The notes below the pieces were generated by a model. That model did not search any database. It was not told the origin of the DNA and was given only the letters and a program-made list of their open reading frames with translations. From Inia geoffrensis (Eukaryota; Chordata; Mammalia; Artiodactyla; Iniidae): DNA of 64,000 nucleotides. Every line of letters begins with the position of its first letter. Within the stretch, counting starts at the first letter, position 1. Made by a program: the position numbers and the translations under genes. Location: contig JAZAQT010000229.1 in assembly GCA_036417435.1 (NCBI GenBank), positions 558,001-622,000 of the forward strand, given 5' to 3'. Of this stretch, positions 1-24,284 are shown piece after piece.

Positions 1-753
1 ACTTAAATAAGTCCTTCAGGGCTTGTGAGGAATCTTGGATTTACCACCTCTACATCCACAGCTGTGGGAGAGATAAGGCTGGACACTTGGGGCTGATACT
101 ATTCGTGAGGGAATGCAAACCCTTTGAGGTAATGGTGCATGGTTCCCATTGCACGGGTCCCAAATCTCCACGTTTACGGGATTTATCCTTCAGCTAAAAT
201 ATGCATGGAAAACCCAGAATATGGTCCACGAAGTGACCAGGCAAAATTATAAACTCATCGCCATTTTCGCCCCCTGGTACTCGAGTTCGCCGTTCCAGAT
301 GCGATATTCACATTCTCCCCACTTGGAGAGTCAATGCCTTTGACCTCTTGTTTGGCACAGTTTGCAATTTTTGTGTAAGATGAACAGGAATAAGGAGAAC
401 GAATGAGCGGCTAACTCGATGTGTTTGGACGGGCACATTGAACTCTGATTTCCCTACAGGAAGAATTCACCAAAGGCTCAGCGTGCCATGCCGGAACGAG
501 ATTAGGGCCTGAAGCAAATCTTCGGGTTTGCGGTCAGCTCACAAGAAAGCGAGTTGAGAAAAGGAGATTTTTGGCACTGTAACTCACAATCCTGCAGAGT
601 TCCAAATGACCCCTATCATCCAAATATTTATTGAAGGAAGGCTGTGAAGAGGACTTGAACGCGACGCAGAATTGCAGAAAACAGATATCAGCGGGTAGAT
701 AAGAATTGCTCTGAAAGAGTAGGAAAAGAGGCAGCAGTTCGACAGTGATGCAC
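1..753. other. Monomer left part, unrecognised (representative)
   Basis: This stretch matches no family I can name on either strand. Its short open frames are not supported as genes. It holds the alpha/beta marker at about 225-255, a moderately CpG-containing stretch at about 260-300 (TCGCC, CTCGAG, TTCGCC), the EcoRI site at 463 and the CTGCAG site near 593. It could be an older mobile-element remnant or ancestral satellite sequence. Confidence 0.6.
463..468. other. EcoRI site, one per monomer (diagnostic landmark)
   Basis: GAATTC occurs once per monomer in the AGGAAGAAGAATTCACC context (monomer 1 lacks one AGA here). A digest would give a ~1.7-kb ladder typical of this satellite class. Confidence 0.8.
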
Positions 754-825
754 TTGGCCAAAAAGGGCGTATGCGTTTTTTCCTGAATATATTCAGGAAA
801 AAACGCATACGCCCTTTTTGGCCAA
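754..825. repeat. 72-bp perfect loopless palindrome (representative copy)
   Basis: The arms are 36 bp, starting TTGGCCAAAAAGGGCG and ending CGCCCTTTTTGGCCAA, with the centre CCTGAATATATTCAGG and no spacer. The palindrome recurs once per monomer. It is perfect in monomers 1, 5-13, 17, 23, 24, 28, 31 and 32; the other copies have 1-4 arm mismatches. As DNA it could extrude a cruciform; as RNA either strand would fold into a long hairpin. It lies exactly at the 5' end of the recognisable L1 part. Confidence 0.97.
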
Positions 826-1710
826 CCAAGCAAGCCTGCAATGGAAATCCGCACTACAAGGAAGTCTCACTTCCCACCGATCCAAAGGGCCGTCCGAAAT
901 AAGTGTAAAATCCAGAGAGACAGGATAGGCCATGGAGAACCGGCAGCCTTGTTATGATGATGGGCGGGATGTAAACTGCCAACAGCCACTCTGGAGAAGT
1001 GCATGGTGTTTCCTGGAAAAAAGAAAAAACAAGTTAGAGAGCCTAGGGCACTTCCACTTATGGTGCTATAGATTCGGAAAATTTAAATGAAAAAGACACA
1101 GCCACACCAAAGTTTGGGGCTGCTCTGTGTACGGGATCCTTGACTATGGTACAACTTTAATAGCCCAGAAAGAGAAAAATGGATATAGAAGTTGTGGTAC
1201 ATCCCTACAATGGAATATCACTCAACAATGAAATCAATGGCAAGAGACCAGTAGCAGCATAATGTGAGGATTTAGTTATGATGATTCTAAGTGAAATAAG
1301 TCACACAGAAAAAGAAACATCATAAGATATCACTAATACCGGGAATGTAAACACGGCTACATGTGAACTGCTTTACAAAACACAACAGAGTCTCACATTT
1401 ACAAAAGAAACTTATGCTTGCTTAAGGGGAAAGGAGAGTGGGGAGGCTGCATAAAACCAGAGGTTGACATTACGACAGATACCATTCCATAAGCCAAATA
1501 TATATTAGACAAGACTTACTCCTTGCTCAACGAAATGGACTCAACACCCCGTATTCAAAACCTAGGAATATGCCTGACTGTGAAGAAACTTAAAACCCAT
1601 ACATTTATAGGTCTCCATAAGAAAATCATTTGTGTACAGCACCATACACACAGCAGTGTCAATAAGCTAAATCCCCTTATAAAAATAAATTTGAAAAAGA
1701 AAACACAAGG
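818..1710 (+). mobile_element. L1 (LINE-1) 3'-terminal fragment inside the monomer (representative)
   Basis: This is a decayed sense copy of the end of an L1. Translating in more than one frame recovers ORF2 C-terminal landmarks in the family order: QPLW with W-FL (about 980-1,015), ALPL (about 1,050), EKDTATPKFGAAL (about 1,088-1,130) and WYI-TMEY (about 1,196-1,225). AAGTGAAATAAGTCACACAG and GGGGAAAGGAGAGTGGGG of the 3' UTR type follow, then an A-rich tail with AATAAA at 1,684-1,689. Frameshifts and stops separate the landmarks, and the Cys/His cluster normally preceding QPLW is lost, so it cannot encode a working protein. Upstream, LANQAS next to the palindrome may match the MANK region of ORF2. 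Equivalent fragments occupy the right half of every monomer. Recognition is from memory of L1 sequence, not a database search. Confidence 0.85.
1684..1689 (+). promoter_or_regulatory. Vestigial L1 polyadenylation signal (AATAAA)
   Basis: AATAAA lies in CCCCTTATAAAAATAAATTT near the end of the L1 fragment, where an L1 3' UTR carries its poly(A) signal. It recurs at the equivalent place in most monomers; monomers 12 and 16 read AAAAATTAATTT and have lost it. The overlapping TATAAAAA could look like a TATA box, but I see no evidence of promoter use. Confidence 0.5.
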
Positions 1711-1730
1711 ACTGTGAAATAGAGAGAAAT

Positions 1731-3465
1731 TCTTAAATAAGTCCTTCAGGGCTTGTGAGGAATCTTGGATTTACCACCTCTACATCCCCAGCTGTGGGAG
1801 AGATAAGGCTGGACACTTGGGGCTGATACTATTGGTGAGGGAATGCAGACCCTTTGAGGTAATGGTGCATGGTTCCCATTCCACGGGTCCCAAATCTCCA
1901 CGTTTAAGGGATTTATCCTTCAGCTAAAATATGCATGGAAAACCCAGAATATGGTCCACGAAGTGACCAAGAAAAATTTTAAAACTCATCACCATTTTCG
2001 CCCCCTGGTACTCGAGTTCGCCGTTCCAGATGCGATATTAACATTCTCCCCACTTGGAGAGTCAGTGCCTTTGACCTCTTGTTTCGCACAGTTTGCAATT
2101 TCTGTGCAAGATGAACAGGAATAAGGAGAACGAATGAGCAGCTAACTCGATGTGTTTGGACGGGCACATTGAACTCTCATTTCCCTACAGGAAGAAGAAT
2201 TCACTAAAGGCTCAGCGTGCCATGCCGGAAAGAGATTAGGGACTGAAGCAATTCTTCGGGTTTGCGGTCAGCTCACAAGAAAGCGAGTTGAGAAAAGGAG
2301 ATTTTTGGCACTGTAACTCACAATCCTACAGAGTTCCAAATGACCCCTATCATCCAAAAATTTATTGAAGGAAGGCTGTGAGGAGGACTTGAACGCGACG
2401 CAGAATTGCAGAAAACAGATATCAGGGGGTAGATAAGAATTGCTCTGAAAGAGCAGGAAAAGAGGCAGCAGTTCGACAGTGATGCACTTGGCGAAAAAGG
2501 GCGTATGCGTTTTTTCCTGAATATATTCAAGAAAAAACGCATACGCCCTTTTTGGCCAACCAAGCAAGCCTGCAATGGAAATCCACACTACAAGGAAGTC
2601 TCACTTCCCACGGATCCAAAGGGCCGTCCGGAAAAAGGGTAAAATCCATAGAGGCAGGACAGGCCATGGAGAACCTGCAGCCTTGTTATGCTGATGGGAG
2701 GGATGTAAATTGCCAACAGCCACTCTGGAGAAGTGCATGGTGTTTCCTGCAACAAAGAAAAAACCAAGCTAGAGAGCCTAGGGCACTTCCACTTATGGTG
2801 CTATAGATTCGGAAAATTTAAATGAAAAAGACACAGCCACACCAAAGTTTGGGGCTGCTCTGTGTATGGGATCCTTGACTATGGTACAACTTTAATAGCC
2901 CAGAAAGAGAAAAATGGATATAGAAGTTGTGGTACATCCCTACAATGGAATATCACTCAACAATGAAATCAATGGCAACAGACCAGTAGCAGCATAATGA
3001 GAGGATTTAGTTATGATGATTCTAAGTGAAATAAGTCACACAGAAAAAGAAACATCATAAGATATCACTAATACCGGGAATGTAAACACGGCTACGAGTG
3101 AACTGCATTACAAAACACAACAGAGTCTCACATTTACAAAAGAAACTTATGCTTGCTTAAGGGGAAAGGAGAGTGGGGAGGCTGCATAAAACCAGAGGTT
3201 CACATTAGGACAGATACCATTCCATAAGCCAAATATATATTAGACAAGACCTACTCCTTGCTCAACGAAATGGACTCAACACCCCGTATTCAAAACCTAG
3301 GAATATGCCTGACTATGAAGAAAATTAAAACCCATACATTTATAGGTCTCCATAAGAAAATCATTTGTGTACAGCACCATACACACAGCAGTGTCAATAA
3401 GCTAAATCCCCTTATAAAAATAAATTTGAAAAAGAAAACACAAGGAATGTGAAATAGAGAGAAAT
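1731..3465 (+). repeat. Satellite monomer 2 (alpha)
   Basis: Length 1,735 bp. Palindrome 2,488-2,559 with two mismatches (TTGGCGAAAA; ATTCAAGAAAA). L1 part 2,552-3,445. Left half resembles that of monomer 4. Confidence 0.95.
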
Positions 3466-5199
3466 TCTTAAATAAGTCCTTCAGGGCTTGTGAGGAATCT
3501 TGGATTTACCACCTCTACATCCATAGATGTGGGAGAGATAAGGCTGGACACTTGGGGCTGATACTATTGGTGAGGGAATGCAGACCCTTTGAGGTAATGG
3601 TGCATGGTTCCCATTCCACGGGTCCCAAATCTCCACGTTTAAGGGATTTATCCTTCAGCTAAAATATGCATGGAAAACCCAGAATATGGTCCACGAAGTG
3701 ACCAGGCAAAATTTTAAAACTCATCGCCATTTTCGCCCCCTGGTACTCTAGTTCTCCGTTCCAGATGCGATATTAACATTCTCCCCACATGGAGAGTCAG
3801 TGCCTTTGACCTCTTGTTTGGCACAGTTTGCAATTTCTGTGGAAGATGAACAGGAATAAGGAGAACGAAAGAGCAGCTAACTCCATGTGTTTGGACGGGC
3901 ACATTGAACTCTGATTTCCCTACAGGAAGAAGAATTCAACAAAGGCTCAGCGTGCCATGCCGGAAAGAGATTAGGGACTGAAGCAATTCTTCGGGTTTGC
4001 GGTCAGCTCACAAGAAAGCGAGTTGAGAAAAGGAGATTTTTGGCACTGTAACTCACAATCCTGCAGAGTTCCAAATGACCCCTATCATCCAAAAATTTAT
4101 TGAATTAAGGCTGTGAAGAGGACTTGAACGTGACGCAGAATTGCAGAAAACAGATATCAGGGGGTAGATAAGAATTGCTCTGAAAGCGTAGGAAAAGAGG
4201 CAGCAGTTCGACAGTGATGCACTTGGCCAAAAAGGGCGTATGCGATTTTTCCTGAATATATTCAGGAAAAAACGCATACGCCCTTTTTGGCCAACCAAGC
4301 AAGCCTGCAATGGAAATCCGCACTACAAGGAAGTCTCACTTCCCACGGATCCAAAGGGCCGTCCGGAAAAAGGGTAAAATCCAGAGAGGCAGGACAGGCC
4401 ATGGAGAACCGGCAGCCTTGTTATGCTGATGGGAGGGATGTAAATTGCCAACAGCCACTCTGGAGAAGTGCATGGTGTTTCCTGGAACAAAGAAAAAAAC
4501 AAGCTAGAGAGCCTAGGGCACTTCCACTTATGGTGCTATAGATTCGGAAAATTTAAATGAAAAAGACACAGCCACACCAAAGTTTGGGGCTGCTCTGTGT
4601 ACGGGATCCTTGACTATGGTACAACTTTAATAGCCCAAAAGAGAAATATGGATATAAAAGTTGTGGCACATCCCTACAATGGAATATCACTCAACAATGA
4701 AATCAAAGGCAACAGACCAGTAGCAGCATAATGAGAGGATTTAGTTATGATGATTCTAAGTGAAATAAGTCACACAGAAAAAGAAACATCATAAGATATC
4801 ACTAATACCGGGAATGTAAACACGGCTACGTGTGAACTGCATTAGAAAACACAACAGAGTCTCACATTTACAAAAGAAACTTATGCTTGCTTAAGGAGAA
4901 AGGAGAGTGGGGAGGCTGCATAAAACCAGAAGTTGACATTAGGACAGATACCATTCCATAAGCCAAATATATATTAGACAAGACCTACTCCTTGCTCAAC
5001 CAAATGGACTCTACACCCCGTATTCAAAACCCAGGAATATACCTGAGTATGAAGAAAATTAAAACCCATACATTTATAGGTCTCCATAAGAAAATCATTT
5101 GTGTATAGCAGCATACACACAGCAGTGTCAATAAGCTAAATCCCCTTATAAAAATAAATTTGAAAAAGAAAACACAAGGAATGTGAAATAGAGAGAAAT
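3466..5199 (+). repeat. Satellite monomer 3 (alpha)
   Basis: Length 1,734 bp. Palindrome 4,223-4,294 with one mismatch (GCGATTTTT). L1 part 4,287-5,179. Its tail has ACACCTGAGTATG-like private changes and an in-frame TAG (GTGTATAGCAG). Confidence 0.95.
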
Positions 5200-6934
5200 T
5201 CTTAAATAAGTCCTTCAGGGCTTGTGAGGAATCTTGGATTTACCACCTCTACATCCCCAGCTGTGGGAGAGATAAGGCTGGACACTTGGGGCTGATACTA
5301 TTGGTGAGGGAATGCAGACCTTTTGAGGTAATGGTGCATGGTTCCCATTCCACGGGTCCCAAATCTCCACGTTTAAGGGATTTATCCTTCAGCTAAAATA
5401 TGCATGGAAAACCCAGAATATGGTCCACGAAGTGACCAGGAAAAATTTTAAAACTCATCACCATTTTCGCCCCCTGGTACTCGAGTTCGCCGTTCCAGAT
5501 GCGATATTAACATTCTCCCCACTTGGAGAGTCAGTGCCTTTGACCTCTTCTTTCGCACAGTTTGCAATTTCTGTGCAAGATGAACAGGAATAAGGAGAAC
5601 GAATCAGCAGCTAACTCGATGTGTTTGGACGGGCACATTGAACTCTCATTTCCCTACAGGAAGAAGAATTCACTAAAGGCTCAGCGTGCCATGCCGGAAA
5701 GAGATTAGGGCCTGAAGCAATTCTTCGGGTTTGCGGTCAGCTCACAAGAAAGCGAGTTGAGAAAAGGAGATTTTTGGCACTGTAACTCACAATCCTGCAG
5801 AGTTCCAAATGACCCCTATCAACCAAAAATTTATTGAAGGAAGGCTGTGAGGAGGACTTGAACGCGACGCAGAATTGCAGAAAACAGATATCAGGGGGTA
5901 GATAAGAATTGCTCTGAAAGAGCAGGAAAAGAGGCAGCAGTTCGACAGTGATGCACTTGGCCAAAAAGTGCGTATGCGTTTTTTCCTGAATATATTCAGG
6001 AAAAAACGCATACGCCCTTTTTGGCCAACCAAGCAAGCCTGCAATGGAAATTCGCAATACAAGGAAGTCTCACTTCCCACCGATCCAAACTGCCGTCCGA
6101 AAATATTGTAAAATCCAGAGAGGCAGGACAGGCCATGGAGAACCGGCAGCCTTGTTATGCTGATGGGCGGGATGTAAATTGCCAACAGCCACTCTGGAGA
6201 AGTGGATGGTGTTTCCTGGAACAAAGAATAAAACAAGCTAGAGAGCCTAGGGCACTTCCACTTATGGTGCTATAGATTCGGAAAATTTAAATGAAAAAGA
6301 CACAGCCACACCAAAGTTTGGGGCTGCTCTGTGTACGGGATCCTTGACTATGGTACAACTTTAATAGCCCAGAAAGAGAAAAATGGATATAGAAGTTGTG
6401 GTACATCCCTACAATGGAATATCACTCAACAATGAAATCAATGGCAACAGACCAGTAGCAGCATAATGTGAGGATTTAGTTATGATGATTCTAAGTGAAA
6501 TAAGTCACACAGAAAAAGAAACATCATAAGATATCACTAATACCGGGAATGTAAACACGGCTACGTGTGAACTGCTTTACAAAACACAACAGAGTCTCAC
6601 ATTTACAAAAGAAACTTATGCTTGCTTAAGGGGAAAGGAGAGTGGGGAGGCTGCATAAAACCAGAGGTTGACATTACGACAGATACCATTCCATAAGCCA
6701 AATATATATTAGACAAGACCTACTCCTTGCTCAACGAAATGGACTCAACACCCCGTATTCAAAACCTAGGAATATGCCTGACTATGACGAAAATTAAAAC
6801 CCATACATTTATAGGTCTCCATAAGAAAATCATTTGTGTACAGCACCATACACACAGCAGTGTCAATAAGCTAAATCCCCTTATAAAAATAAATTTGAAA
6901 AACAAAACACAAGGACTGTGAAATAGAGAGAAAT
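5200..6934 (+). repeat. Satellite monomer 4 (alpha, chimeric)
   Basis: Length 1,735 bp. Palindrome 5,957-6,028 with one mismatch (AAAAAGTGCG). L1 part 6,021-6,914. Left half is monomer-2-like, right half is block-B type; the switch lies within 5,924-6,051. Confidence 0.95.
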
Positions 6935-8669
6935 TCTTAAATAAGTCCTTCAGGGCTTGTGAGGAATCTTGGATTTACCACCTCTACATCCACAGCTGGG
7001 GGAGAGATAAGGCTGGACACTTGCGGCTGATAGTATTGGTGAGGGAATGCAGATCCTTTGAGGTAATGGTGCATGGTTCCCATTCCACGGGTCCCAAATC
7101 TCCACGTTTAAGGGATTTATCCTTCAGCTAAAATATGCATGGAAAACCCAGAATATGGTCCACGAAGTGATCAGGCATAATTTCTAAAACTCGTCGCCAT
7201 TTTCGCCCCCTGGTACTCGAGTTCGCCGTTCCAGATGCGATATTAACATTCTCCCCACTTGGAGAGTCAGTGCCTTTGACCTCTTGTTTGGCACAGTTTG
7301 CAATTTCTGTGGAAGATGAACAGGAATAAGGAGAACCAATGAGCGGCTAACTCGATGTGTTTGGACGGGCACATTGAACTCTGATTTCCTTACAGGAAGA
7401 AGAATTCACCAAAGGCTCAGAGTGCCATGCCGGAACGAGATTAAGGCCTGAAGCAATTCTTCGGGTTTGCGGTCAGCTCACAAGAAAGCGAGTTGAGAAA
7501 AGGAGATTTTTGGCACTGTAACTCACAATCCTGCAGAGTTCCAAATGCCCCTATCATCCAAAAATTTATTGAAGGAAGGCTGTGAAGAGGACTTGAACGC
7601 GACGCAGAATTGCAGAAAACAGATATTAGGGGGTAGATAAGAATTGGTCTGAAAGAGCAGGAAAAGAGGCAGCAGTTCGACAGTGATGCACTTGGCCAAA
7701 AAGGGCGTATGCGTTTTTTCCTGAATATATTCAGGAAAAAACGCATACGCCCTTTTTGGCCAACCAAGCAAGCCTGCAATGGAAATCCGCACTACAAGGA
7801 AGTCTCACTTCCCACCGATCCAAACGGCCGTCCGAAAAAAGTGTAAAATCCAGAGAGGCAGGACAGGCCATGGAGAACCGGCAGCCTTGTTATGCTGATG
7901 GGTGGGATGTAAATTGCCAACAGCCACTCTGGAGAAGTGGATGGTGTTTCCTGGAACAAAGAAAAAAACAAGCTAGAGAGCCTAGGGCACTTCCACTTAT
8001 GGTGCTATAGATTCGGAAAGTTTAAATGAAAAAGACACAGCCACACCAAAGTTTGGGGCTGCTCTGTGTACGGGATCCTTGACTATGGTACAACTTTAAT
8101 AGCCCAAAAAGAGAAATATGGATATAAAAGTTGTGGTACATCCCTACAATGGAATATCACTCAACAATGAAATCAATGGCAACAGACCAGGAGCAGCATA
8201 ATGAGAGGATTTAGTTATGATGATTCTAAGTGAAATAAGTCACACAGAAAAAGAAACATCATAAGATATCACTAATACCGGGAATGTAAACACGGCTACG
8301 TGTGAACTGCATTACAAAACACAACAGAGTCTCACATTTACAAAAGAAACTTATGCTTGCTTAAGGGGAAAGGAGAGTGGGGAGGCTGCATAAAACCAGA
8401 GGTTCACATTAGGACAGATACCATTCCATAAGCCAAATATATATTAGACAAGACCTACTCCTTGCTCAACGAAATGGACTCAACACCCCGTATTCAAAAC
8501 CTAGGAATATGCCTGACTATGAAGAAAATTAAAACCCATACATTTATAGGTCTCCATAAGAAAATCATTTGTGTACAGCACCATACACACAGCAGTGTCA
8601 ATAAGCTAAATCCCCTTATAAAAATAAATTTGAAAAAGAAAACACAAGGAATGTGAAATAGAGAGAAAT
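6935..8669 (+). repeat. Satellite monomer 5 (beta)
   Basis: Length 1,735 bp. Palindrome 7,692-7,763, perfect. L1 part 7,756-8,649. It carries the one-base deletion CCAAATGCCCC that also marks monomers 7, 9 and 11. Confidence 0.95.
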
Positions 8670-10404
8670 TCTTAAATAAGTCCTTCAGGGCTTGTGAGGA
8701 ATCTTGGATTTACCACCTCTACATCCACAGATGTGGGAGAGATAAGGCTGGACACTTGGGGCTGATACTATTGGTGAGGGAATGCAGACCCTTTGGGGTA
8801 ATGGTGCATGGTTCCCATTGCACGGGTCCCAAATCTCCACGTTTAAGGGATTTATCCTTCAGCTAAAATATGCATGGAAAACCGAGAATATGGTCCACGA
8901 AGTGACCAGGCAAAATTTTAAAACTCATCGCCATTTTCGCCCCCTGGTACTCTAGTTCTCCGTTCCAGATGCGATATTAACATTCTCCCCACTTGGAGAG
9001 TCAGTGCCTTTGACCTCTTGTTTCGCACAGTTTGCAATTTCTGTGGAAGATGAACAGGAATAAGGAGAACGAATGAGCAGCTAACTCCATGTGTTTGGAC
9101 GGGCACATTGAACTCTGATTTCCCTACAGGAAGAAGAATTCAACAAAGGCTCAGCGTGCCATGCCGGAAAGAGATTAGGGACTGAAGCAATTCTTCGGGT
9201 TTGCGGTCAGCTCACAAGAAAGCGAGTTGAGAAAAGGAGATTTTTGGCCCTGTAACTCACAATCCTGCAGAGTTCCAAATGACCCCTATCATCCAAAAAT
9301 TTATTGAAGGAAGGCTGTGAAGAGGACTTGAACGCGACGCAGAATTGCAGAAAACAGATATCAGGGGGTAGATAAGAATTGGTCTGAAAGAGTAGGAAAA
9401 GAGGCAGCAGTTCGACAGTGATGCACTTGGCCAAAAAGGGCGTATGCGTTTTTTCCTGAATATATTCAGGAAAAAACGCATACGCCCTTTTTGGCCAACC
9501 AAGCAAGCCTGCAATGGAAATTCGCAATACAAGGAAGTCTCACTTCCCACCGATCCAAACTGCCGTCCGAAAATATTGTAAAATCCAGAGAGGCAGGACA
9601 GGCCATGGAGAACCGGCAGCCTTGTTATGCTGATGGGCGGGATGTAAATTGCCAACAGCCACTCTGGAGAAGTGGATGGTGTTTCCTGGAACAAAGAATA
9701 AAACAAGCTAGAGAGCCTAGGGCACTTCCACTTATGGTGCTATAGATTCGGAAAATTTAAATGAAAAAGACACAGCCACACCAAAGTTTGGGGCTGCTCT
9801 GTGTACGGGATCCTTGACTATGGTACAACTTTAATAGCCCAGAAAGAGAAAAATGGATATAGAAGTTGTGGTACATCCCTACAATGGAATATCACTCAAC
9901 AATGAAATCAATGGCAACAGACCAGTAGCAGCATAATGTGAGGATTTAGTTATGATGATTCTAAGTGAAATAAGTCACACAGAAAAAGAAACATCATAAG
10001 ATATCACTAATACCGGGAATGTAAACACGGCTACGTGTGAACTGCTTTACAAAACACAACAGAGTCTCACATTTACAAAAGAAACTTATGCTTGCTTAAG
10101 GGGAAAGGAGAGTGGGGAGGCTGCATAAAACCAGAGGTTGACATTACGACAGATACCATTCCATAAGCCAAATATATATTAGACAAGACCTACTCCTTGC
10201 TCAACGAAATGGACTCAACACCCCGTATTCAAAACCTAGGAATATGCCTGACTATGACGAAAATTAAAACCCATACATTTATAGGTCTCCATAAGAAAAT
10301 CATTTGTGTACAGCACCATACACACAGCAGTGTCAATAAGCTAAATCCCCTTATAAAAATAAATTTGAAAAACAAAACACAAGGACTGTGAAATAGAGAG
10401 AAAT
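8670..10404 (+). repeat. Satellite monomer 6 (alpha)
   Basis: Length 1,735 bp. Palindrome 9,427-9,498, perfect. L1 part 9,491-10,384. XhoI site replaced by CTCTAG; shares TTTTTGGCCCTG with monomers 8, 10 and 12. Confidence 0.95.
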
Positions 10405-12139
10405 TCTTAAATAAGTCCTTCAGGGCTTGTGAGGAATCTTGGATTTACCACCTCTACATCCACAGCTGGGGGAGAGATAAGGCTGGACACTTGCGGCTGA
10501 TAGTATTGGTGAGGGAATGCAGACCCTTTGAGGTAATGGTGCATGGTTCCCATTCCACGGGTCCCAAATCTCCACGTTTAAGGGATTTATCCTTCAGCTA
10601 AAATATGCATGGAAAACCCAGAATATGGTCCACGAAGTGATCAGGCATAATTTCTAAAACTCGTCGCCATTTTCGCCCCCTGGTACTCGAGTTCGCCGTT
10701 CCAGATGCGATATTAACATTCTCCCCACTTGGAGAGTCAGTGCCTTTGACCTCTTGTTTGGCACAGTTTGCAATTTCTGTGGAAGATGAACAGGAATAAG
10801 GAGAACCAATGAGCGGCTAACTCGATGTGTTTGGACGGGCACATTGAACTCTGATTTCCTTACAGGAAGAAGAATTCACCAAAGGCTCAGAGTGCCATGC
10901 CGGAACGAGATTAAGGCCTGAAGCAATTCTTCGGGTTTGCGGTCAGCTCACAAGAAAGCGAGTTGAGAAAAGGAGATTTTTGGCACTGTAACTCACAATC
11001 CTGCAGAGTTCCAAATGCCCCTATCATCCAAAAATTTATTGAAGGAAGGCTGTGAAGAGGACTTGAACGCGACGCAGAATTGCAGAAAACAGATATTAGG
11101 GGGTAGATAAGAATTGGTCTGAAAGAGCAGGAAAAGAGGCAGCAGTTCGACAGTGATGCACTTGGCCAAAAAGGGCGTATGCGTTTTTTCCTGAATATAT
11201 TCAGGAAAAAACGCATACGCCCTTTTTGGCCAACCAAGCAAGCCTGCAATGGAAATCCGCACTACAAGGAAGTCTCACTTCCCACCGATCCAAACGGCCG
11301 TCCGAAAAAAGTGTAAAATCCAGAGAGGCAGGACAGGCCATGGAGAACCGGCAGCCTTGTTATGCTGATGGGTGGGATGTAAATTGCCAACAGCCACTCT
11401 GGAGAAGTGGATGGTGTTTCCTGGAACAAAGAAAAAAACAAGCTAGAGAGCCTAGGGCACTTCCACTTATGGTGCTATAGATTCGGAAAGTTTAAATGAA
11501 AAAGACACAGCCACACCAAAGTTTGGGGCTGCTCTGTGTACGGGATCCTTGACTATGGTACAACTTTAATAGCCCAAAAAGAGAAATATGGATATAAAAG
11601 TTGTGGTACATCCCTACAATGGAATATCACTCAACAATGAAATCAATGGCAACAGACCAGGAGCAGCATAATGAGAGGATTTAGTTATGATGATTCTAAG
11701 TGAAATAAGTCACACAGAAAAAGAAACATCATAAGATATCACTAATACCGGGAATGTAAACACGGCTACGTGTGAACTGCATTACAAAACACAACAGAGT
11801 CTCACATTTACAAAAGAAACTTATGCTTGCTTAAGGGGAAAGGAGAGTGGGGAGGCTGCATAAAACCAGAGGTTCACATTAGGACAGATACCATTCCATA
11901 AGCCAAATATATATTAGACAAGACCTACTCCTTGCTCAACGAAATGGACTCAACACCCCGTATTCAAAACCTAGGAATATGCCTGACTATGAAGAAAATT
12001 AAAACCCATACATTTATAGGTCTCCATAAGAAAATCATTTGTGTACAGCACCATACACACAGCAGTGTCAATAAGCTAAATCCCCTTATAAAAATAAATT
12101 TGAAAAAGAAAACACAAGGAATGTGAAATAGAGAGAAAT
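10405..12139 (+). repeat. Satellite monomer 7 (beta)
   Basis: Length 1,735 bp. Palindrome 11,162-11,233, perfect. L1 part 11,226-12,119. Near-identical to monomer 5. Confidence 0.95.
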
Positions 12140-13874
12140 TCTTAAATAAGTCCTTCAGGGCTTGTGAGGAATCTTGGATTTACCACCTCTACATCCACAG
12201 ATGTGGGAGAGATAAGGCTGGACACTTGGGGCTGATACTATTGGTGAGGGAATGCAGACCCTTTGGGGTAATGGTGCATGGTTCCCATTGCACGGGTCCC
12301 AAATCTCCACGTTTAAGGGATTTATCCTTCAGCTAAAATATGCATGGAAAACCGAGAATATGGTCCACGAAGTGACCAGGCAAAATTTTAAAACTCATCG
12401 CCATTTTCGCCCCCTGGTACTCTAGTTCTCCGTTCCAGATGCGATATTAACATTCTCCCCACTTGGAGAGTCAGTGCCTTTGACCTCTTGTTTCGCACAG
12501 TTTGCAATTTCTGTGGAAGATGAACAGGAATAAGGAGAACGAATGAGCAGCTAACTCCATGTGTTTGGACGGGCACATTGAACTCTGATTTCCCTACAGG
12601 AAGAAGAATTCAACAAAGGCTCAGCGTGCCATGCCGGAAAGAGATTAGGGACTGAAGCAATTCTTCGGGTTTGCGGTCAGCTCACAAGAAAGCGAGTTGA
12701 GAAAAGGAGATTTTTGGCCCTGTAACTCACAATCCTGCAGAGTTCCAAATGACCCCTATCATCCAAAAATTTATTGAAGGAAGGCTGTGAAGAGGACTTG
12801 AACGCGACGCAGAATTGCAGAAAACAGATATCAGGGGGTAGATAAGAATTGGTCTGAAAGAGTAGGAAAAGAGGCAGCAGTTCGACAGTGATGCACTTGG
12901 CCAAAAAGGGCGTATGCGTTTTTTCCTGAATATATTCAGGAAAAAACGCATACGCCCTTTTTGGCCAACCAAGCAAGCCTGCAATGGAAATTCGCAATAC
13001 AAGGAAGTCTCACTTCCCACCGATCCAAACTGCCGTCCGAAAATATTGTAAAATCCAGAGAGGCAGGACAGGCCATGGAGAACCGGCAGCCTTGTTATGC
13101 TGATGGGCGGGATGTAAATTGCCAACAGCCACTCTGGAGAAGTGGATGGTGTTTCCTGGAACAAAGAATAAAACAAGCTAGAGAGCCTAGGGCACTTCCA
13201 CTTATGGTGCTATAGATTCGGAAAATTTAAATGAAAAAGACACAGCCACACCAAAGTTTGGGGCTGCTCTGTGTACGGGATCCTTGACTATGGTACAACT
13301 TTAATAGCCCAGAAAGAGAAAAATGGATATAGAAGTTGTGGTACATCCCTACAATGGAATATCACTCAACAATGAAATCAATGGCAACAGACCAGTAGCA
13401 GCATAATGTGAGGATTTAGTTATGATGATTCTAAGTGAAATAAGTCACACAGAAAAAGAAACATCATAAGATATCACTAATACCGGGAATGTAAACACGG
13501 CTACGTGTGAACTGCTTTACAAAACACAACAGAGTCTCACATTTACAAAAGAAACTTATGCTTGCTTAAGTGGAAAGGAGAGTGGGGAGGCTGCATAAAA
13601 CCAGAGGTTGACATTACGACAGATACCATTCCATAAGCCAAATATATATTAGACAAGACCTACTCCTTGCTCAACGAAATGGACTCAACACCCCGTATTC
13701 AAAACCTAGGAATATGCCTGACTATGACGAAAATTAAAACCCATACATTTATAGGTCTCCATAAGAAAATCATTTGTGTACAGCACCATACACACAGCAG
13801 TGTCAATAAGCTAAATCCCCTTATAAAAATAAATTTGAAAAACAAAACACAAGGACTGTGAAATAGAGAGAAAT
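12140..13874 (+). repeat. Satellite monomer 8 (alpha)
   Basis: Length 1,735 bp. Palindrome 12,897-12,968, perfect. L1 part 12,961-13,854. Near-identical to monomer 6; private T near 13,571. Confidence 0.95.
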
Positions 13875-15609
13875 TCTTAAATAAGTCCTTCAGGGCTTGT
13901 GAGGAATCTTGGATTTACCACCTCTACATCCACAGCTGGGGGAGAGATAAGGCTGGACACTTGCGGCTGATAGTATTGGTGAGGGAATGCAGACCCTTTG
14001 AGGTAATGGTGCATGGTTCCCATTCCACGGGTCCCAAATCTCCACGTTTAAGGGATTTATCCTTCAGCTAAAATATGCATGGAAAACCCAGAATATGGTC
14101 CACGAAGTGATCAGGCATAATTTCTAAAACTCGTCGCCATTTTCGCCCCCTGGTACTCGAGTTCGCCGTTCCAGATGCGATATTAACATTCTCCCCACTT
14201 GGAGAGTCAGTGCCTTTGACCTCTTGTTTGGCACAGTTTGCAATTTCTGTGGAAGATGAACAGGAATAAGGAGAACCAATGAGCGGCTAACTCGATGTGT
14301 TTGGACGGGCACATTGAACTCTGATTTCCTTACAGGAAGAAGAATTCACCAAAGGCTCAGAGTGCCATGCCGGAACGAGATTAAGGCCTGAAGCAATTCT
14401 TCGGGTTTGCGGTCAGCTCACAAGAAAGCGAGTTGAGAAAAGGAGATTTTTGGCACTGTAACTCACAATCCTGCAGAGTTCCAAATGCCCCTATCATCCA
14501 AAAATTTATTGAAGGAAGGCTGTGAAGAGGACTTGAACGCGACGCAGAATTGCAGAAAACAGATATTAGGGGGTAGATAAGAATTGGTCTGAAAGAGCAG
14601 GAAAAGAGGCAGCAGTTCGACAGTGATGCACTTGGCCAAAAAGGGCGTATGCGTTTTTTCCTGAATATATTCAGGAAAAAACGCATACGCCCTTTTTGGC
14701 CAACCAAGCAAGCCTGCAATGGAAATCCGCACTACAAGGAAGTCTCACTTCCCACCGATCCAAACGGCCGTCCGAAAAAAGTGTAAAATCCAGAGAGGCA
14801 GGACAGGCCATGGAGAACCGGCAGCCTTGTTATGCTGATGGGTGGGATGTAAATTGCCAACAGCCACTCTGGAGAAGTGGATGGTGTTTCCTGGAACAAA
14901 GAAAAAAACAAGCAAGAGAGCCTAGGGCACTTCCACTTATGGTGCTATAGATTCGGAAAGTTTAAATGAAAAAGACACAGCCACACCAAAGTTTGGGGCT
15001 GCTCTGTGTACGGGATCCTTGACTATGGTACAACTTTAATAGCCCAAAAATAGAAATATGGATATAAAAGTTGTGGTACATCCCTACAATGGAATATCAC
15101 TCAACAATGAAATCAATGGCAACAGACCAGTAGCAGCATAATGAGAGGATTTAGTTATGATGATTCTAAGTGAAATAAGTCACACAGAAAAAGAAACATC
15201 ATAAGATATCACTAATACCGGGAATGTAAACACGGCTACGTGTGAACTGCATTACAAAACACAACAGAGTCTCACATTTACAAAAGAAACTTATGCTTGC
15301 TTAAGGGGAAAGGAGAGTGGGGAGGCTGCATAAAACCAGAGGTTCACATTAGGACAGATACCATTCCATAAGCCAAATATATATTAGACAAGACCTACTC
15401 CTTGCTCAACGAAATGGACTCAACACCCCGTATTCAAAACCTAGGAATATGCCTGACTATGAAGAAAATTAAAACCCATACATTTATAGGTCTCCATAAG
15501 AAAATCATTTGTGTACAGCACCATACACACAGCAGTGTCAATAAGCTAAATCCCCTTATAAAAATAAATTTGAAAAAGAAAACACAAGGAATGTGAAATA
15601 GAGAGAAAT
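13875..15609 (+). repeat. Satellite monomer 9 (beta)
   Basis: Length 1,735 bp. Palindrome 14,632-14,703, perfect. L1 part 14,696-15,589. AGCAAGAGAG here and in monomer 11 replaces AGCTAGAGAG. Confidence 0.95.
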
Positions 15610-17344
15610 TCTTAAATAAGTCCTTCAGGGCTTGTGAGGAATCTTGGATTTACCACCTCTACATCCACAGATGTGGGAGAGATAAGGCTGGACACTTGGG
15701 GCTGATACTATTGGTGAGGGAATGCAGACCCTTTGAGGTAATGGTGCATGGTTCCCATTGCACGGGTCCCAAATCTCCACGTTTAAGGGATTTATCCTTC
15801 AGCTAAAATATGCATGGAAAACCGAGAATATGGTCCACGAAGTGACCAGGCAAAATTTTAAAACTCATCGCCATTTTCGCCCCCTGGTACTCTAGTTCTC
15901 CGTTCCAGATGCGATATTAACATTCTCCCCACTTGGAGAGTCAGTGCCTTTGACCTCTTGTTTCGCACAGTTTGCAATTTCTGTGGAAGATGAACAGGAA
16001 TAAGGAGAACGAATGAGCAGCTAACTCCATGTGTTTGGACGGGCACATTGAACTCTGATTTCCCTACAGGAAGAAGAATTCAACAAAGGCTCAGCGTGCC
16101 ATGCCGGAAAGACATTAGGGACTGAAGCAATTCTTCGGGTTTGCGGTCAGCTCACAAGAAAGCGAGTTGAGAAAAGGAGATTTTTGGCCCTGTAACTCAC
16201 AATCCTGCAGAGTTCCAAATGACCCCTATCATCCAAAAATTTATTGAAGGAAGGCTGTGAAGAGGACTTGAACGCGACGCAGAATTGCAGAAAACAGATA
16301 TCAGGGGGTAGATAAGAATTGGTCTGAAAGAGTAGGAAAAGAGGCAGCAGTTCGACAGTGATGCACTTGGCCAAAAAGGGCGTATGCGTTTTTTCCTGAA
16401 TATATTCAGGAAAAAACGCATACGCCCTTTTTGGCCAACCAAGCAAGCCTGCAATGGAAATTCGCAATACAAGGAAGTCTCACTTCCCACCGATCCAAAC
16501 TGCCGTCCGAAAATATTGTAAAATCCAGAGAGGCAGGACAGGCCATGGAGAACCGGCAGCCTTGTTATGCTGATGGGCGGGATGTAAATTGCCAACAGCC
16601 ACTCTGGAGAAGTGGATGGTGTTTCCTGGAACAAAGAAAAAAACAAGCTAGAGAGCCTAGGGCACTTCCACTTATGGTGCTATAGATTCGGAAAATTTAA
16701 ATGAAAAAGACACAGCCACACCAAAGTTTGGGGCTGCTCTGTGTACGGGATCCTTGACTATGGTACAACTTTAATAGCCCAGAAAGAGAAAAATGGATAT
16801 AGAAGTTGTGGTACATCCCTACAATGGAATATCACTCAACAATGAAATCAATGGCAACAGACCAGTAGCAGCATAATGTGAGGATTTAGTTATGATGATT
16901 CTAAGTGAAATAAGTCACACAGAAAAAGAAACATCATAAGATATCACTAATACCGGGAATGTAAACACGGCTACGTGTGAACTGCTTTACAAAACACAAC
17001 AGAGTCTCACATTTACAAAAGAAACTTATGCTTGCTTAAGGGGAAAGGAGAGTGGGGAGGCTGCATAAAACCAGAGGTTGACATTACGACAGATACCATT
17101 CCATAAGCCAAATATATATTAGACAAGACCTACTCCTTGCTCAACGAAATGGACTCAACACCCCGTATTCAAAACCTAGGAATATGCCTGACTATGACGA
17201 AAATTAAAACCCATACATTTATAGGTCTCCATAAGAAAATCATTTGTGTACAGCACCATACACACAGCAGTGTCAATAAGCTAAATCCCCTTATAAAAAT
17301 AAATTTGAAAAACAAAACACAAGGACTGTGAAATAGAGAGAAAT
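15610..17344 (+). repeat. Satellite monomer 10 (alpha)
   Basis: Length 1,735 bp. Palindrome 16,367-16,438, perfect. L1 part 16,431-17,324. Confidence 0.95.
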
Positions 17345-19079
17345 TCTTAAATAAGTCCTTCAGGGCTTGTGAGGAATCTTGGATTTACCACCTCTACATC
17401 CACAGCTGGGGGAGAGATAAGGCTGGACACTTGCGGCTGATAGTATTGGTGAGGGAATGCAGACCCTTTGAGGTAATGGTGCATGGTTCCCATTCCACGG
17501 GTCCCAAATCTCCACGTTTAAGGGATTTATCCTTCAGCTAAAATATGCATGGAAAACCCAGAATATGGTCCACGAAGTGATCAGGCATAATTTCTAAAAC
17601 TCGTCGCCATTTTCGCCCCCTGGTACTCGAGTTCGCCGTTCCAGATGCGATATTAACATTCTCCCCACTTGGAGAGTCAGTGCCTTTGACCTCTTGTTTG
17701 GCACAGTTTGCAATTTCTGTGGAAGATGAACAGGAATAAGGAGAACCAATGAGCGGCTAACTCGATGTGTTTGGACGGGCACATTGAACTCTGATTTCCT
17801 TACAGGAAGAAGAATTCACCAAAGGCTCAGAGTGCCATGCCGGAACGAGATTAAGGCCTGAAGCAATTCTTCGGGTTTGCGGTCAGCTCACAAGAAAGCG
17901 AGTTGAGAAAAGGAGATTTTTGGCACTGTAACTCACAATCCTGCAGAGTTCCAAATGCCCCTATCATCCAAAAATTTATTGAAGGAAGGCTGTGAAGAGG
18001 ACTTGAACGCGACGCAGAATTGCAGAAAACAGATATTAGGGGGTAGATAAGAATTGGTCTGAAAGAGCAGGAAAAGAGGCAGCAGTTCGACAGTGATGCA
18101 CTTGGCCAAAAAGGGCGTATGCGTTTTTTCCTGAATATATTCAGGAAAAAACGCATACGCCCTTTTTGGCCAACCAAGCAAGCCTGCAATGGAAATCCGC
18201 ACTACAAGGAAGTCTCACTTCCCACCGATCCAAACGGCCGTCCGAAAAAAGTGTAAAATCCAGAGAGGCAGGACAGGCCATGGAGAACCGGCAGCCTTGT
18301 TATGCTGATGGGTGGGATGTAAATTGCCAACAGCCACTCTGGAGAAGTGGATGGTGTTTCCTGGAACAAAGAAAAAAACAAGCAAGAGAGCCTAGGGCAC
18401 TTCCACTTATGGTGCTATAGATTCGGAAAGTTTAAATGAAAAAGACACAGCCACACCAAAGTTTGGGGCTGCTCTGTGTACGGGATCCTTGACTATGGTA
18501 CAACTTTAATAGCCCAAAAAGAGAAATATGGATATAAAAGTTGTGGTACATCCCTACAATGGAATATCACTCAACAATGAAATCAATGGCAACAGACCAG
18601 TAGCAGCATAATGAGAGGATTTAGTTATGATGATTCTAAGTGAAATAAGTCACACAGAAAAAGAAACATCATAAGATATCACTAATACCGGGAATGTAAA
18701 CACGGCTACGTGTGAACTGCATTACAAAACACAACAGAGTCTCACATTTACAAAAGAAACTTATGCTTGCTTAAGGGGAAAGGAGAGTGGGGAGGCTGCA
18801 TAAAACCAGAGGTTCACATTAGGACAGATACCATTCCATAAGCCAAATATATATTAGACAAGACCTACTCCTTGCTCAACGAAATGGACTCAACACCCCG
18901 TATTCAAAACCTAGGAATATGCCTGACTATGAAGAAAATTAAAACCCATACATTTATAGGTCTCCATAAGAAAATCATTTGTGTACAGCACCATACACAC
19001 AGCAGTGTCAATAAGCTAAATCCCCTTATAAAAATAAATTGGAAAAAGAAAACACAAGGAATGTGAAATAGAGAGAAAT
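17345..19079 (+). repeat. Satellite monomer 11 (beta)
   Basis: Length 1,735 bp. Palindrome 18,102-18,173, perfect. L1 part 18,166-19,059. Last beta copy of the block-B dimers. Confidence 0.95.
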
Positions 19080-20814
19080 TCTTAAATAAGTCCTTCAGGG
19101 CTTGTGAGGAATCTTGGATTTACCACCTCTACATCCACAGATGTGGGAGAGATAAGGCTGGACACTTGGGGCTGATACTATTGGTGAGGGAATGCAGACC
19201 CTTTGAGGTAATGGTGCATGGTTCCCATTGCACGGGTCCCAAATCTCCACGTTTAAGGGATTTATCCTTCAGCTAAAATATGCATGGAAAACCCAGAATA
19301 TGGTCCACGAAGTGACCAGGCAAAATTTTAAAACTCATCGCCATTTTCGCCCCCTGGTACTCTAGTTCTCCGTTCCAGATGCGATATTAACATTCTCCCC
19401 ACTTGGAGAGTCAGTGCCTTTGACCTCTTGTTTCGCACAGTTTGCAATTTCTGTGGAAGATGAACAGGAATAAGGAGAACGAATGAGCAGCTAACTCCAT
19501 GTGTTTGGACGGGCACATTGAACTTTGATTTCCCTACAGGAAGAAGAATTCAACAAAGGCTCAGCGGGCCATGCCGGAAAGAGATTAGGGACTGAAGCAA
19601 TTCTTCGGGTTTGCAGTCAGCTCACAAGAAAGCGAGTTGAGAAAAGGAGATTTTTGGCCCTGTAACTCACAATCCTGCAGAGTTCCAAATGACCCCTATC
19701 ATCCAAAAATTTATTGAAGGAAGGCTGTGAAGAAGACTTGAACGCGACGCAGAATTGCAGAAAACAGATATCAGGGGGTAGATAAGAATTGCTCTGAAAG
19801 AGTAGGAAAAGAGGCAGCAGTTCGACAGTGATGCACTTGGCCAAAAAGGGCGTATGCGTTTTTTCCTGAATATATTCAGGAAAAAACGCATACGCCCTTT
19901 TTGGCCAACCAAGCAAGCCTGCAATGGAAATTCGCAATACAAGGAAGTCTCACTTCCCACCGATCCAAACGGCCGTCCGAAAATATTGTAAAATCCAGAG
20001 AGGCAGGACAGGCCATGGAGAACCGGCAGCCTTGTTATGCTGATGGGCGGGATGTAAATTGCCAACAGCCACTCTGGAGAAGTGGATGGTGTTTCCTGGA
20101 ACAAAGAAAAAAACAAGCTAGAGAGCCTAGGGCACTTCCACTTATGGTGCTATAGATTCGGAAAATTTAAATGAAAAAGACACAGCCACACCAAAGTTTG
20201 GGGCTGCTCTGTGTACGGGATCCTTGACTATGGTACAACTTTAATAGCCCAGAAAGAGAAAAATGGATATAGAAGTTGTGGTACATCCCTACAATGGAAT
20301 ATCACTCAACAATGAAATCAATGGCAACAGACCAGTAGCAGCATAATGTAAGGATTTAGTTATGATGATTCTAAGTGAAATAAGTCACACAGAAAAAGAA
20401 ACATCATAAGATATCACTAATACCGGGAATGTAAACACGGCTACGTGTGAACTGCTTTACAAAACACAACAGAGTCTCACATTTACAAAAGAATCTTATG
20501 CTTGCTTAAGGGGAAAGGAGAGTGGGGAGGCTGCATAAAACCAGAGGTTGACATTACGACAGATACCATTCCATAAGCCAAATATATATTAGACAAGACC
20601 TACTCCTTGCTCAACCAAATGGACTCAACACCCCGTATTCAAAACCTAGGAATATGCCTGACTATGAAGAAAATTAAAACCCATACATTTATAGGTCTCC
20701 ATAAGAAAATCATTTGTGTACAGCAGCATACACACAGCAGTGTAAATAAGCTAAATCCTCTTATAAAAATTAATTTGAAAAAGAAAACACAAGATATGTC
20801 AAATAGAGAGAAAT
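19080..20814 (+). repeat. Satellite monomer 12 (alpha)
   Basis: Length 1,735 bp. Palindrome 19,837-19,908, perfect. L1 part 19,901-20,794. Block-B alpha variant that diverges toward its 3' end (CAGCAGCAT, GTAAATAAGC, AATTAATTTG); this tail is what block C repeats at 27,683. Confidence 0.95.
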
Positions 20815-22549
20815 TCTTAAATAAGTCCTTCAGGGCTTGTGAGGAATCTTGGATTTACCACCTCTACATCCACAGCTGTGGGAGAGATAAGGCTGGACAC
20901 TTGGGGCTGATACTATTGGTGAGGGAATGCAGACCCTTTGAGGTAATGGTGCATGGTTCCCATTGCACGGGTCCCAAATCTCCACGTTTAAGGGATTTAT
21001 CCTTCAGCTAAAATATGCATGGAAAACCCAGAATATGGTCCACGAAATGACCAGGCAAAATTTTAAAACTCATCGCCATTTTCCCCCACTGGTACTCGAG
21101 TTCGCCGTTCCAGATGCGATATTAACATTCTCCCCACTTGGAGAGTCAGTGCCTTTGACCTCTTGTTTGGCACAGTTTGCATTTTCTGTGGAAGATGAAC
21201 AGGAATAAGGAGAACGAATGAGCAGCTAACTCCATGTGTTTGGACGGGCACATTGAACTCTGATTTCCCTACAGGAAGAAGAATTCACCAAAGGCTCAGC
21301 GAGCCATGCCGGAACGAGTTTAGGGACTGAAGCAATTCTTCGGGTTTGCGTTCAGCTCACAAAAAAGCGAGTTGAGAAAAGGAGATTTTTGGCACTGTAA
21401 CTCACAATCCTGCAGAGTTCCAAATGACCCCTATCATTCAAAAATTTATTGAAGGAAGGCTGTGAAGAGGACTTGAACGCGACGCAGAATTGCAGAAAAC
21501 AGATATCAGGGGGTAGATAAGAATTGCTCTGAAAGCGTAGGAAAAGAGGCAGCAGTTCGACAGTGATGCACTTGGCCAAAAAGGGCGTATGCGTTTTTTC
21601 CTGAATATATTCAGGAAAAAACGCATACGCCCTTTTTGGCCAATCAAGCAAGCCTGAAATGGAAATCCGCACTACAAGGAAGTCTCAATTCCCACCGATC
21701 CAAAGGGCCCTCCGAAAAAAGTGTAAAATCCAGAGAGGCAGGACAGGCCGTGGAGAACCGGCAGCCTTGTTATGCTGATGGGCGGCATGTAAATTGCCAA
21801 CAGCCACTCTGGAGAAGTGGATGGTGTTTCCTGGAACAAAGAAAAAAACAAGCTAGAGAGCCTAGGGCACTTCCACTTATGGTGCTATAGATTCGGAAAA
21901 TTTAAATGAAAAAGACACAGCCACACCAAAGTTTGGGGCTGCTCTGTGTACGGGATCCTTGACTATGGTACAACTTTAATAGCCCAGAAAGAGAAAAATG
22001 CATATAGAAGTTGTGGTACATCCCTACAATGGAATATCACTCAACAATGAAATCAATGGCAACAGACCAGTAGCAGCATAATGACAGGATTTAGTTATGA
22101 TGATTCTAAGTGAAATAATTCACACAGAAAAAGAAACATCATAAGATATCACTAATACAGGGAATGTAAACACGGCTACGTGTGAACTGCATTACAAAAC
22201 ACAACAGAGTCTCACATTTACAAAAGAAACTTATGCTTGCTTAAGGGGAAAGGAGAGTGGGGAGGCTGCATAAAACCAGAGGTTCACATTAGGACAGATA
22301 CCATTCCATAAGCCAAATATATATTAGACAAGACCTACTCCTTGCTCAACCAAATGGACTCAACACCCCGTATTCATAACCTTGGAATATGCCTGACTAT
22401 GAAGAAAATTAAAACCCATACATTTATAGGTCTCCATAAGAAAATCATTTGTGTACAGCACCATACACACAGCAGTGTCAATAAGCTAAATCCCCTTATA
22501 AAAATAAATTTGAAAAACAAAACACAAGGACTGTGAAATAGAGAGAAAT
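20815..22549 (+). repeat. Satellite monomer 13 (alpha)
   Basis: Length 1,735 bp. Palindrome 21,572-21,643, perfect. L1 part 21,636-22,529. First monomer of tetramer C1; it follows another alpha monomer and so breaks the alternation. Confidence 0.95.
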
Positions 22550-24284
22550 TCTTAAATAAGTCCTTCAGGGCTTGTGAGGAATCTTGGATTTACCACCTCT
22601 ACATCCACAGCTGGGGGAGAGATAAGGCTGGACACTTGGGGCTGATAGTATTGGTGAGGGAATGCAGACCCTTTGAGGTAATGGTGCATGGTTCCCATTC
22701 CACGGGTCCCAAATCTCCACGTTTAAGGGATTTATCCTTCAGCTAAAATATGCATGGAAAACCCAGAATATGGTCCACGAAGTGATCAGGCATAATTTCT
22801 AAAACTCATCGCCATTTTCGCCCCTGATACTCGAGTTCGCCGTTCCAGATGCGAGATTAACATTCTCCCCACTTGGAGAGTCAGTGCCTTTGACCTCTTG
22901 TTTGGCACAGTTTGCAATTTCTGTGGAAGATGAACAGGAATAAGGAGAACCAATGAGCGGCTAACTCGATGTGTTTGGACGGGCACATTGAAGTTTGATT
23001 TCCCTACAGGAAGAAGAATTCACCAAAGGCTCAGCGGGCCATGCCGGAACGAGATTAGGGCCTGAAGCAATTCTTTGGGTTTTCGGTCAGCTCACAAGAA
23101 AGCGAGTTGAGAAAAGGAGATCTTTGGCACTGTAGCTCACAATCCTGCAGAGTTCCAAATGACCCCTATCATCCAAAAATTTATTGAAGGAAGGCTGTGA
23201 AGAGGACTTGAACGCGACGCAGAATTGCAGAAAACAGATATCAGGGGGTAGATAAGAATTGCTCTGAAAGCGTAGGAAAAGAGGCAGCAGTTCGACAGTG
23301 ATGCACTTGGCCAAAAAGGGCGTATGCGTTTTTTCCTGAATATATTCAGGAAAAAAGGCATACGCCCTTTTTGGCCAACCAAGCAAGCCTGCAATGGAAA
23401 TCCGCACTACAAGGAAGTCTCACTTCCCACGGATCCAAAGGGCCGTCCGAAAAAAGTGTAAAATCCAGAGAGGCAGGACAGGCCATGGAGAACCGGCAGC
23501 CTTGTTATGCTGATGGGCGGGATGTAAATTGCCAACAGCCACTCTGGAGAAGTGGATGGTGTTTCCTGGAACAAAGAAAAAAACAAGCTAGAGAGCCTAG
23601 GGCACTTCCACTTATGGTGCTATAGATTCGGTAAATTTAAATGAAAAAGACACAGCCACACCAAAGTTTGGGGCTGCTCTGTGTACGGGATCCTTGACTA
23701 TGGTACAACTTTAATAGTCCAGAAAGAGAAAAATGGATATAGAAGTTGTGGTACATCCCTACAATGGAATATCACTCAACAATGAAATCCATGGCAACAC
23801 ACCAGTAGCAGCATAATGACAGGATTTAGTTATGATGATTCTAAGTGAAATAAGTCACACAGAAAAAGAAACATCATAAGATATCACTAATACCGGGAAT
23901 GTAAACACGGCTACGTGTGAACTGCATTACAAAACACAACAGAGTCTCACATTTACAAAAGAAACTTATGCTTGCTTAAGGGGAAAGGAGAGTGGGGAGG
24001 CTGCATAAAACCAGAGGTTCACATTAGGACAGATACCATTCCATAAGCCAAATATATATTAGACAAGACCTACTCATTGCTCAACCAAATGGACTCAACA
24101 CCCCGTATTCAAAACCTTGGAATATGGCTGACTATGAAGAAAATTAAAACCCATACATTTATGGGTCTCCATAAGAAAATCATTTGTGTACACCACCATA
24201 CACACAGCAGTGTCAATAAGCTAAATCCCCTTATAAAAATAAATTTGAAAAACAAAACACAAGGAATGTTAAATAGAGAGAAAT
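22550..24284 (+). repeat. Satellite monomer 14 (beta)
   Basis: Length 1,735 bp. Palindrome 23,307-23,378 with one mismatch (AAAAAAGGCATACG). L1 part 23,371-24,264. Confidence 0.95.

Follow-up and report, generated by a model that had tools for sequence, protein, structure and literature searches.

A perfect palindrome in an abundant satellite of Inia geoffrensis, probably the relic of a mariner-type MITE

The window analysed here is a stretch of 64,000 nucleotides (G000:C178:558001-622000) from an assembly of 2.75 Gb in 895 contigs, and it consists of satellite DNA (Table 1). A palindrome is present once in each of the 37 head-to-tail monomers. Sixteen of these copies are perfect, and all 16 share the same sequence over 72 bases, which is also the consensus of the window. 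An earlier note on this DNA had described a spacerless 72-bp palindrome, one per monomer and perfect in 16 of 37 copies, and our recount confirms it in every detail (exact at 754-825, found in 37/37 monomers). In two of the 16 perfect copies, centred at 40689 and 47625, the symmetry is one base pair longer (74 bp). The chance expectation for a 36-bp arm in 64 kb, about 64000 x 4^-36, is negligible. Other perfect palindromes in the window do not exceed 46 bp, and the centres listed for them belong to damaged 72-bp palindromes. The proportion of 16/37 is ordinary for this array: in the alignment of 36 monomers the commonest haplotype of a 72-bp segment has 13.3 copies on average, and in 39% of segments it has 15 or more; for the palindrome the number is 16. 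Mean pairwise divergence among the 36 full monomers is 2.84%. A weak higher-order pattern is also visible, with mean divergence of 2.1% and 1.9% at monomer lags 2 and 4 versus 2.6-2.8% at lags 1, 3 and 5. Tandem Repeats Finder, whose longest period is 500, found nothing in the window.

Table 1. Positions of the satellite array, of selected palindrome copies and of neighbouring features in the window
Feature	Position	Strand	Basis or reading
Array of 37 head-to-tail satellite monomers, each with a palindrome, 1734-1736 bp	1..64000	+	Start-to-start spacing
Perfect 72-bp palindrome, reference copy, two 36-nt arms without spacer	754..825	.	Read as a probable mariner-type MITE relic
Right outer flank CCAAGCAA; right end on the other strand reads GGTTGGCCAAAAAG	826..833	.	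Comparison by eye
Stretch like cetartiodactyl L1 3' end	1160..1460 (limits approximate)	+	Resemblance, in line with the L1 origin published for the common satellite of cetaceans
Imperfect copy, 2 broken pairs	2488..2559	.	Palindrome comparison across monomers
Copy with perfect symmetry reaching 74 bp, centre 40689	40653..40726	.	
Haplotype with most damage in the window, 4 broken pairs, common to 3 copies	42388..42459	.	

The satellite that carries the palindrome resembles the common satellite of cetaceans, which contains L1 sequence and has a unit of about 1.7 kb in other species of the group. Unit length, abundance and the L1 portion all fit, the last by resemblance: we take the stretch at 1160..1460 to be a cetartiodactyl L1 3' end. 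Genome-wide counts were obtained by pattern searches; a search of this assembly in DNA mode, which skips very common words, gave 0 matches. Within 2 mismatches the arm has 75,092 and 75,433 matches, and the reversed control has 0. Because every palindrome puts one arm on either strand, these numbers correspond to about 75,000 units, which at 1735 bp per unit add up to some 130 Mb (4.7% of the assembly). Sites that match all 72 bases exactly number 30,762, about 41% of the ~75,000 and near the 16/37 of the window. Recent homogenisation, one of the explanations put forward in the earlier note, thus holds only in part: the exact copies bear out homogenisation, but it extends over the whole genome and is neither purely recent nor purely local. 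In blind samples of other contigs the same satellite was found on C300, C500 and C250 but not on C400 and C600. A subfamily with longer units keeps the arm as well, exact arms being spaced 1752-1753 bp and mixed with 1735 (G000:C2:3001329-3055503). Among the matches listed, C1 has eight isolated exact arms (95.3-103.0 Mb and 149.8 Mb) and no exact 72-mer, versus long arrays on C2. The collections viral_contigs, genome_contigs, plasmids and phages contained 0 matches to the satellite or to the transposon end described below, and short strings of the sequence had no match in the literature searched.

Sampling of C178 covered positions 450,001-691,775 and five more 10-kb stretches, where 144 monomers span the palindrome. 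They comprise 118 young copies and 26 from old, diverged units, represented by seven units, D1-D7; three of these old copies, odd in length, were left out of pair scoring. The young copies diverge by 1.8% in the flanks and by 1.1% in the palindrome, and 60 of them are perfect, while none of the 26 old units has a perfect palindrome. Between diverged monomers, a non-satellite insert of ~5.07 kb with L1-like 3' ends occurs six times in 242 kb of C178 (L003:3016-8087; gaps at 466928, 490174, 503016, 515858, 530432 and 545006). One of its reading frames resembles part of a polymerase from an endogenous retrovirus. For the copy in L008, 285 differences were counted over 4450 aligned bases, a total to which a short and doubtful second alignment contributes. 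The start of the contig (L009, C178:1-10000) is a degenerate telomere-like repeat; its frames read LTLT as CTAACC would, and there is also a larger period, 2,687 bp.

At centromeres that lack CENP-B boxes, a role for dyad symmetries has been proposed, and a cruciform or dyad might likewise be needed for centromere function here. In favour of this idea, besides the proposal itself, stands the very stable hairpin predicted for a perfect copy as single-stranded DNA (folding energy -43.1 kcal/mol, z -15.4). Broken copies are, however, common (21/37 in the window), and from the telomere-like repeat at the start of C178 no centromeric position follows for the array. As far as the sequence allows us to judge, such a requirement is very improbable.

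Perfect copies all belong to the consensus haplotype (60/60 among the 144 C178 monomers), and none of the 118 young copies was perfect with any other haplotype. Mirrored pairs are present in 4 of 36 distinct 72-nt haplotypes, where about 0.8 would be expected, and they trace to only two independent events, which is near chance. One is 25/48, carried by the D7 line and young copies related to it; the other, 22/51 in D2, is a CpG pair. Since there are only these two events and no other perfect haplotype in young copies, the current symmetry exists by descent. The present symmetry reflects descent together with concerted evolution, and ongoing arm-to-arm repair is not seen; as an ongoing process, the arm-to-arm conversion considered in the earlier note is not supported by these counts. 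We therefore do not favour the hypothesis that arm-to-arm correction, by template switching at a hairpin, keeps the arms alike. The two mirrored pairs could be its products, and the arms may have been equalised once, as all five differences from a dispersed MITE end (discussed below) are mirrored. On the other hand, young haplotypes are almost all one-sided, and the four haplotypes with mirrored pairs represent just two events, one of them at a CpG. The mirrored differences would be explained equally well by a source element with such ends, though no facing pairs turned up in the first 100 of 810 places matching a query for such an element. Altogether we consider continuing correction improbable.

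Within the arrays, the palindrome decays at about the rate of its flanks. It has 12 variable sites in the window versus 11.5 expected per 72, and a nucleotide diversity of 2.4% versus 2.9%. In young copies, distinct changes amount to 0.444 per site versus 0.526, and 22% of segments are as low; 61 of 116 copies have the majority haplotype of the palindrome, 15% of segments being as high. On C300 the palindrome is changed at 3/72 sites with flanks at 4%, and on C500 at none with flanks at 3%. The comparison of decay and symmetry with the flanks, which the earlier note had proposed, yields a flank-like rate and no clear excess of symmetric changes inside arrays, and this is the sequence part of what that note had named as refuting its idea. 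Some weak retention would still be compatible with the deep branch and with genome-wide numbers for the palindrome and one control. The changes in young copies are rich in transversions (transitions 332/875 outside the palindrome and 15/32 inside, versus 21/32 in copies of the embedded insert). In old lineages the flanks are transversion-rich as well and the palindrome is not (23 transitions and 10 transversions in D1-D6).

There are two sources of a possible retention signal, old lineages and genome-wide counts. Firstly, in six old lineages the distance to consensus is 7.6% for the palindrome versus 16.5% for the whole unit, the lowest of 1664 segments (z -3.2). The rank of most conserved segment is weakened by a tree-based count, because distance to consensus counts changes on the consensus branch once per lineage; on the tree the values are 0.51 and 0.71 steps per site, and 146 of 1522 segments are as low as the palindrome. 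Much of the old-lineage difference sits on the branch to the array consensus, where 0/69 palindrome sites changed versus 110/1479 elsewhere (7.4%; 0.9% of segments at zero, simple probability 0.005). With a stricter outgroup the numbers are 0/65 versus 66/1183, and 1.9% of segments are at zero. By lineage, palindrome changes and divergence outside the palindrome are 7/70 and 13.9% in D2, 7/69 and 11.0% in D3, 2/69 and 10.2% in D4, 5/72 and 9.4% in D5, 5/71 and 11.7% in D6, and 3/69 and 9.2% in D7. Only D4 is outstandingly low among segments (152/1491 changes elsewhere, no other segment equal). Units from C250 differ among themselves: L028 has 2/72 changes in the palindrome versus 140/1282 (10.9%) in the flank, L033 8/72 versus 33/191, and L032, where the palindrome has been lost at flank rate, 10/72 versus 27/189. 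Secondly, one control 72-mer has 13,545 + 9,305 = 22,850 exact copies genome-wide, although locally it is more uniform than the palindrome (75/116 versus 61/116 copies). The excess of exact palindrome copies over this control is modest and comes from a single control window.

These data could mean that the palindrome is weakly retained, with intact units amplifying or persisting more often, for example through a start site of replication or recombination or through a protein site, and with units at array edges decaying freely. The empty consensus branch, the low count in D4, the C250 unit with a well-kept palindrome in a diverged flank, and the 30,762 exact sites for about 75,000 arms, more than the control reaches, would all agree with this. 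However, the branch test was picked after seeing the data, the tree-based total is not significant, and there is no deficit within young arrays. The 5-7 changes in D2, D3, D5 and D6 are not unusual among segments, another C250 unit has 10/72 changes, and the genome-wide comparison depends on that one control window. We regard weak retention as unlikely, though clearly less so than a centromeric requirement or continuing arm correction. Slightly less probable still is its selfish version, in which a captured transposon palindrome would act as a cis-element: intact units would be amplified or repaired more often and would stay exact over tens of thousands of copies, and edge units would lose it.

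The origin of the palindrome is suggested by a dispersed element of the same genome. An artiodactyl transposon end, presumably of mariner type, was used as a genome query. The sequence GGTTGGCCAAAAAGTTCRTTYRGG has 540 + 507 exact matches genome-wide (1,047 ends), and its reversed control has 0. Among the first 100 places listed, the ends are scattered along C1 and C3 and include 9 facing pairs, which measure 68-73 bp from one homologous end to the other (72 bp in the satellite). The dispersed element ends with the same outer TTGGCCAAAAAG as the palindrome. Between arm and element end 17 of 22 bases agree, the outer 12 being all identical. The right end shares 14 bases with the element, among them a GG outside the palindrome, and the left side is without such a GG (CAC before TTGG). 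No TA duplication is visible at the 754/825 edges, whose outer ends may have decayed.

At all five positions where the arm departs from the dispersed element, the opposite arm has the mirrored change, so the two arms were presumably alike by the time of the satellite's expansion. Such ends may have come with the source element, or a single round of equalisation, for example by template switching, may have produced them. Independent decay of an inserted MITE would not lead to such mirroring, and this, like the missing TA duplication, speaks against a MITE origin. When the satellite-type arm was sought as a dispersed MITE subfamily, 338 + 472 = 810 matches were obtained; no facing pairs at ~50 bp were present among the first 100 of these places, many of which are at satellite spacing and some isolated. 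In Rfam, a query of 3.6 kb had no hit at the cut-off of any family, the best being mir-3167 with 40.3 versus 86 bits. The family mir-3926, whose ends also read UGGCCAAAAAG, scored 34.3 bits versus a cut-off of 82, and any perfect hairpin may score so.

We suggest that the palindrome is the relic of a mariner-type MITE within the satellite, maintained by neutral concerted evolution with no function needed, and we give this reading a probability of roughly two in three. A possible course of events is as follows. A mariner-type MITE would have sat in the ancestral satellite unit, and the palindrome would be what remains of it. Either from the outset or by a later change, its two inverted ends would have formed a perfect palindrome without spacer, no later than the spread of the satellite. 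As the structure of the array suggests, this perfect form was probably copied with the ~1.74-kb unit through unequal exchange and amplification. Single mutations would then break the palindrome at about the flank rate, while the amplification of unbroken units would keep the consensus perfect. The copies present today may be explained in this way with no cruciform, hairpin or protein-binding function.

If our assumptions are true, the ancestral satellite captured a mariner MITE, and the palindrome is the record of that event. About 75,000 natural copies would then be at hand for measuring palindrome decay, template switching and amplification bias. Should the weak retention signal hold, the old question of selection on satellite dyads would become directly testable from long reads.

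Several known systems can be compared with this one. The common cetacean satellite is L1-derived according to a row of a review table (cetaceans, L1, "Common satellite"), which cites Kapitonov et al. 1998; papers of Arnason and Widegren also belong here, and from a cited title the killer whale unit is 1,579 bp (PMC8909793, PMC5615363, PMC7763226). As far as these partial sources describe it, that satellite is like ours in its long unit, its L1 tail (in our case by resemblance) and its great abundance. The portions available of the literature searched for palindromes with cetacean terms mention no palindrome in it, and one may well be described in the original papers. The accessible part of PMC1784062 presents MADE1, a mariner MITE of 80 bp that forms a near-perfect palindrome of two 37-bp ends around a 6-bp centre and is connected with the human mir-548 hairpins; such MITEs can thus be near-perfect palindromes. 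MADE1 has its 6-bp centre and is dispersed, whereas the perfect palindrome described here is spacerless and locked in a satellite. In the latter respect it is similar to Mboumar of ants, by the excerpt seen of PMC2581405 an element of the mariner family that likewise lies within satellite DNA.
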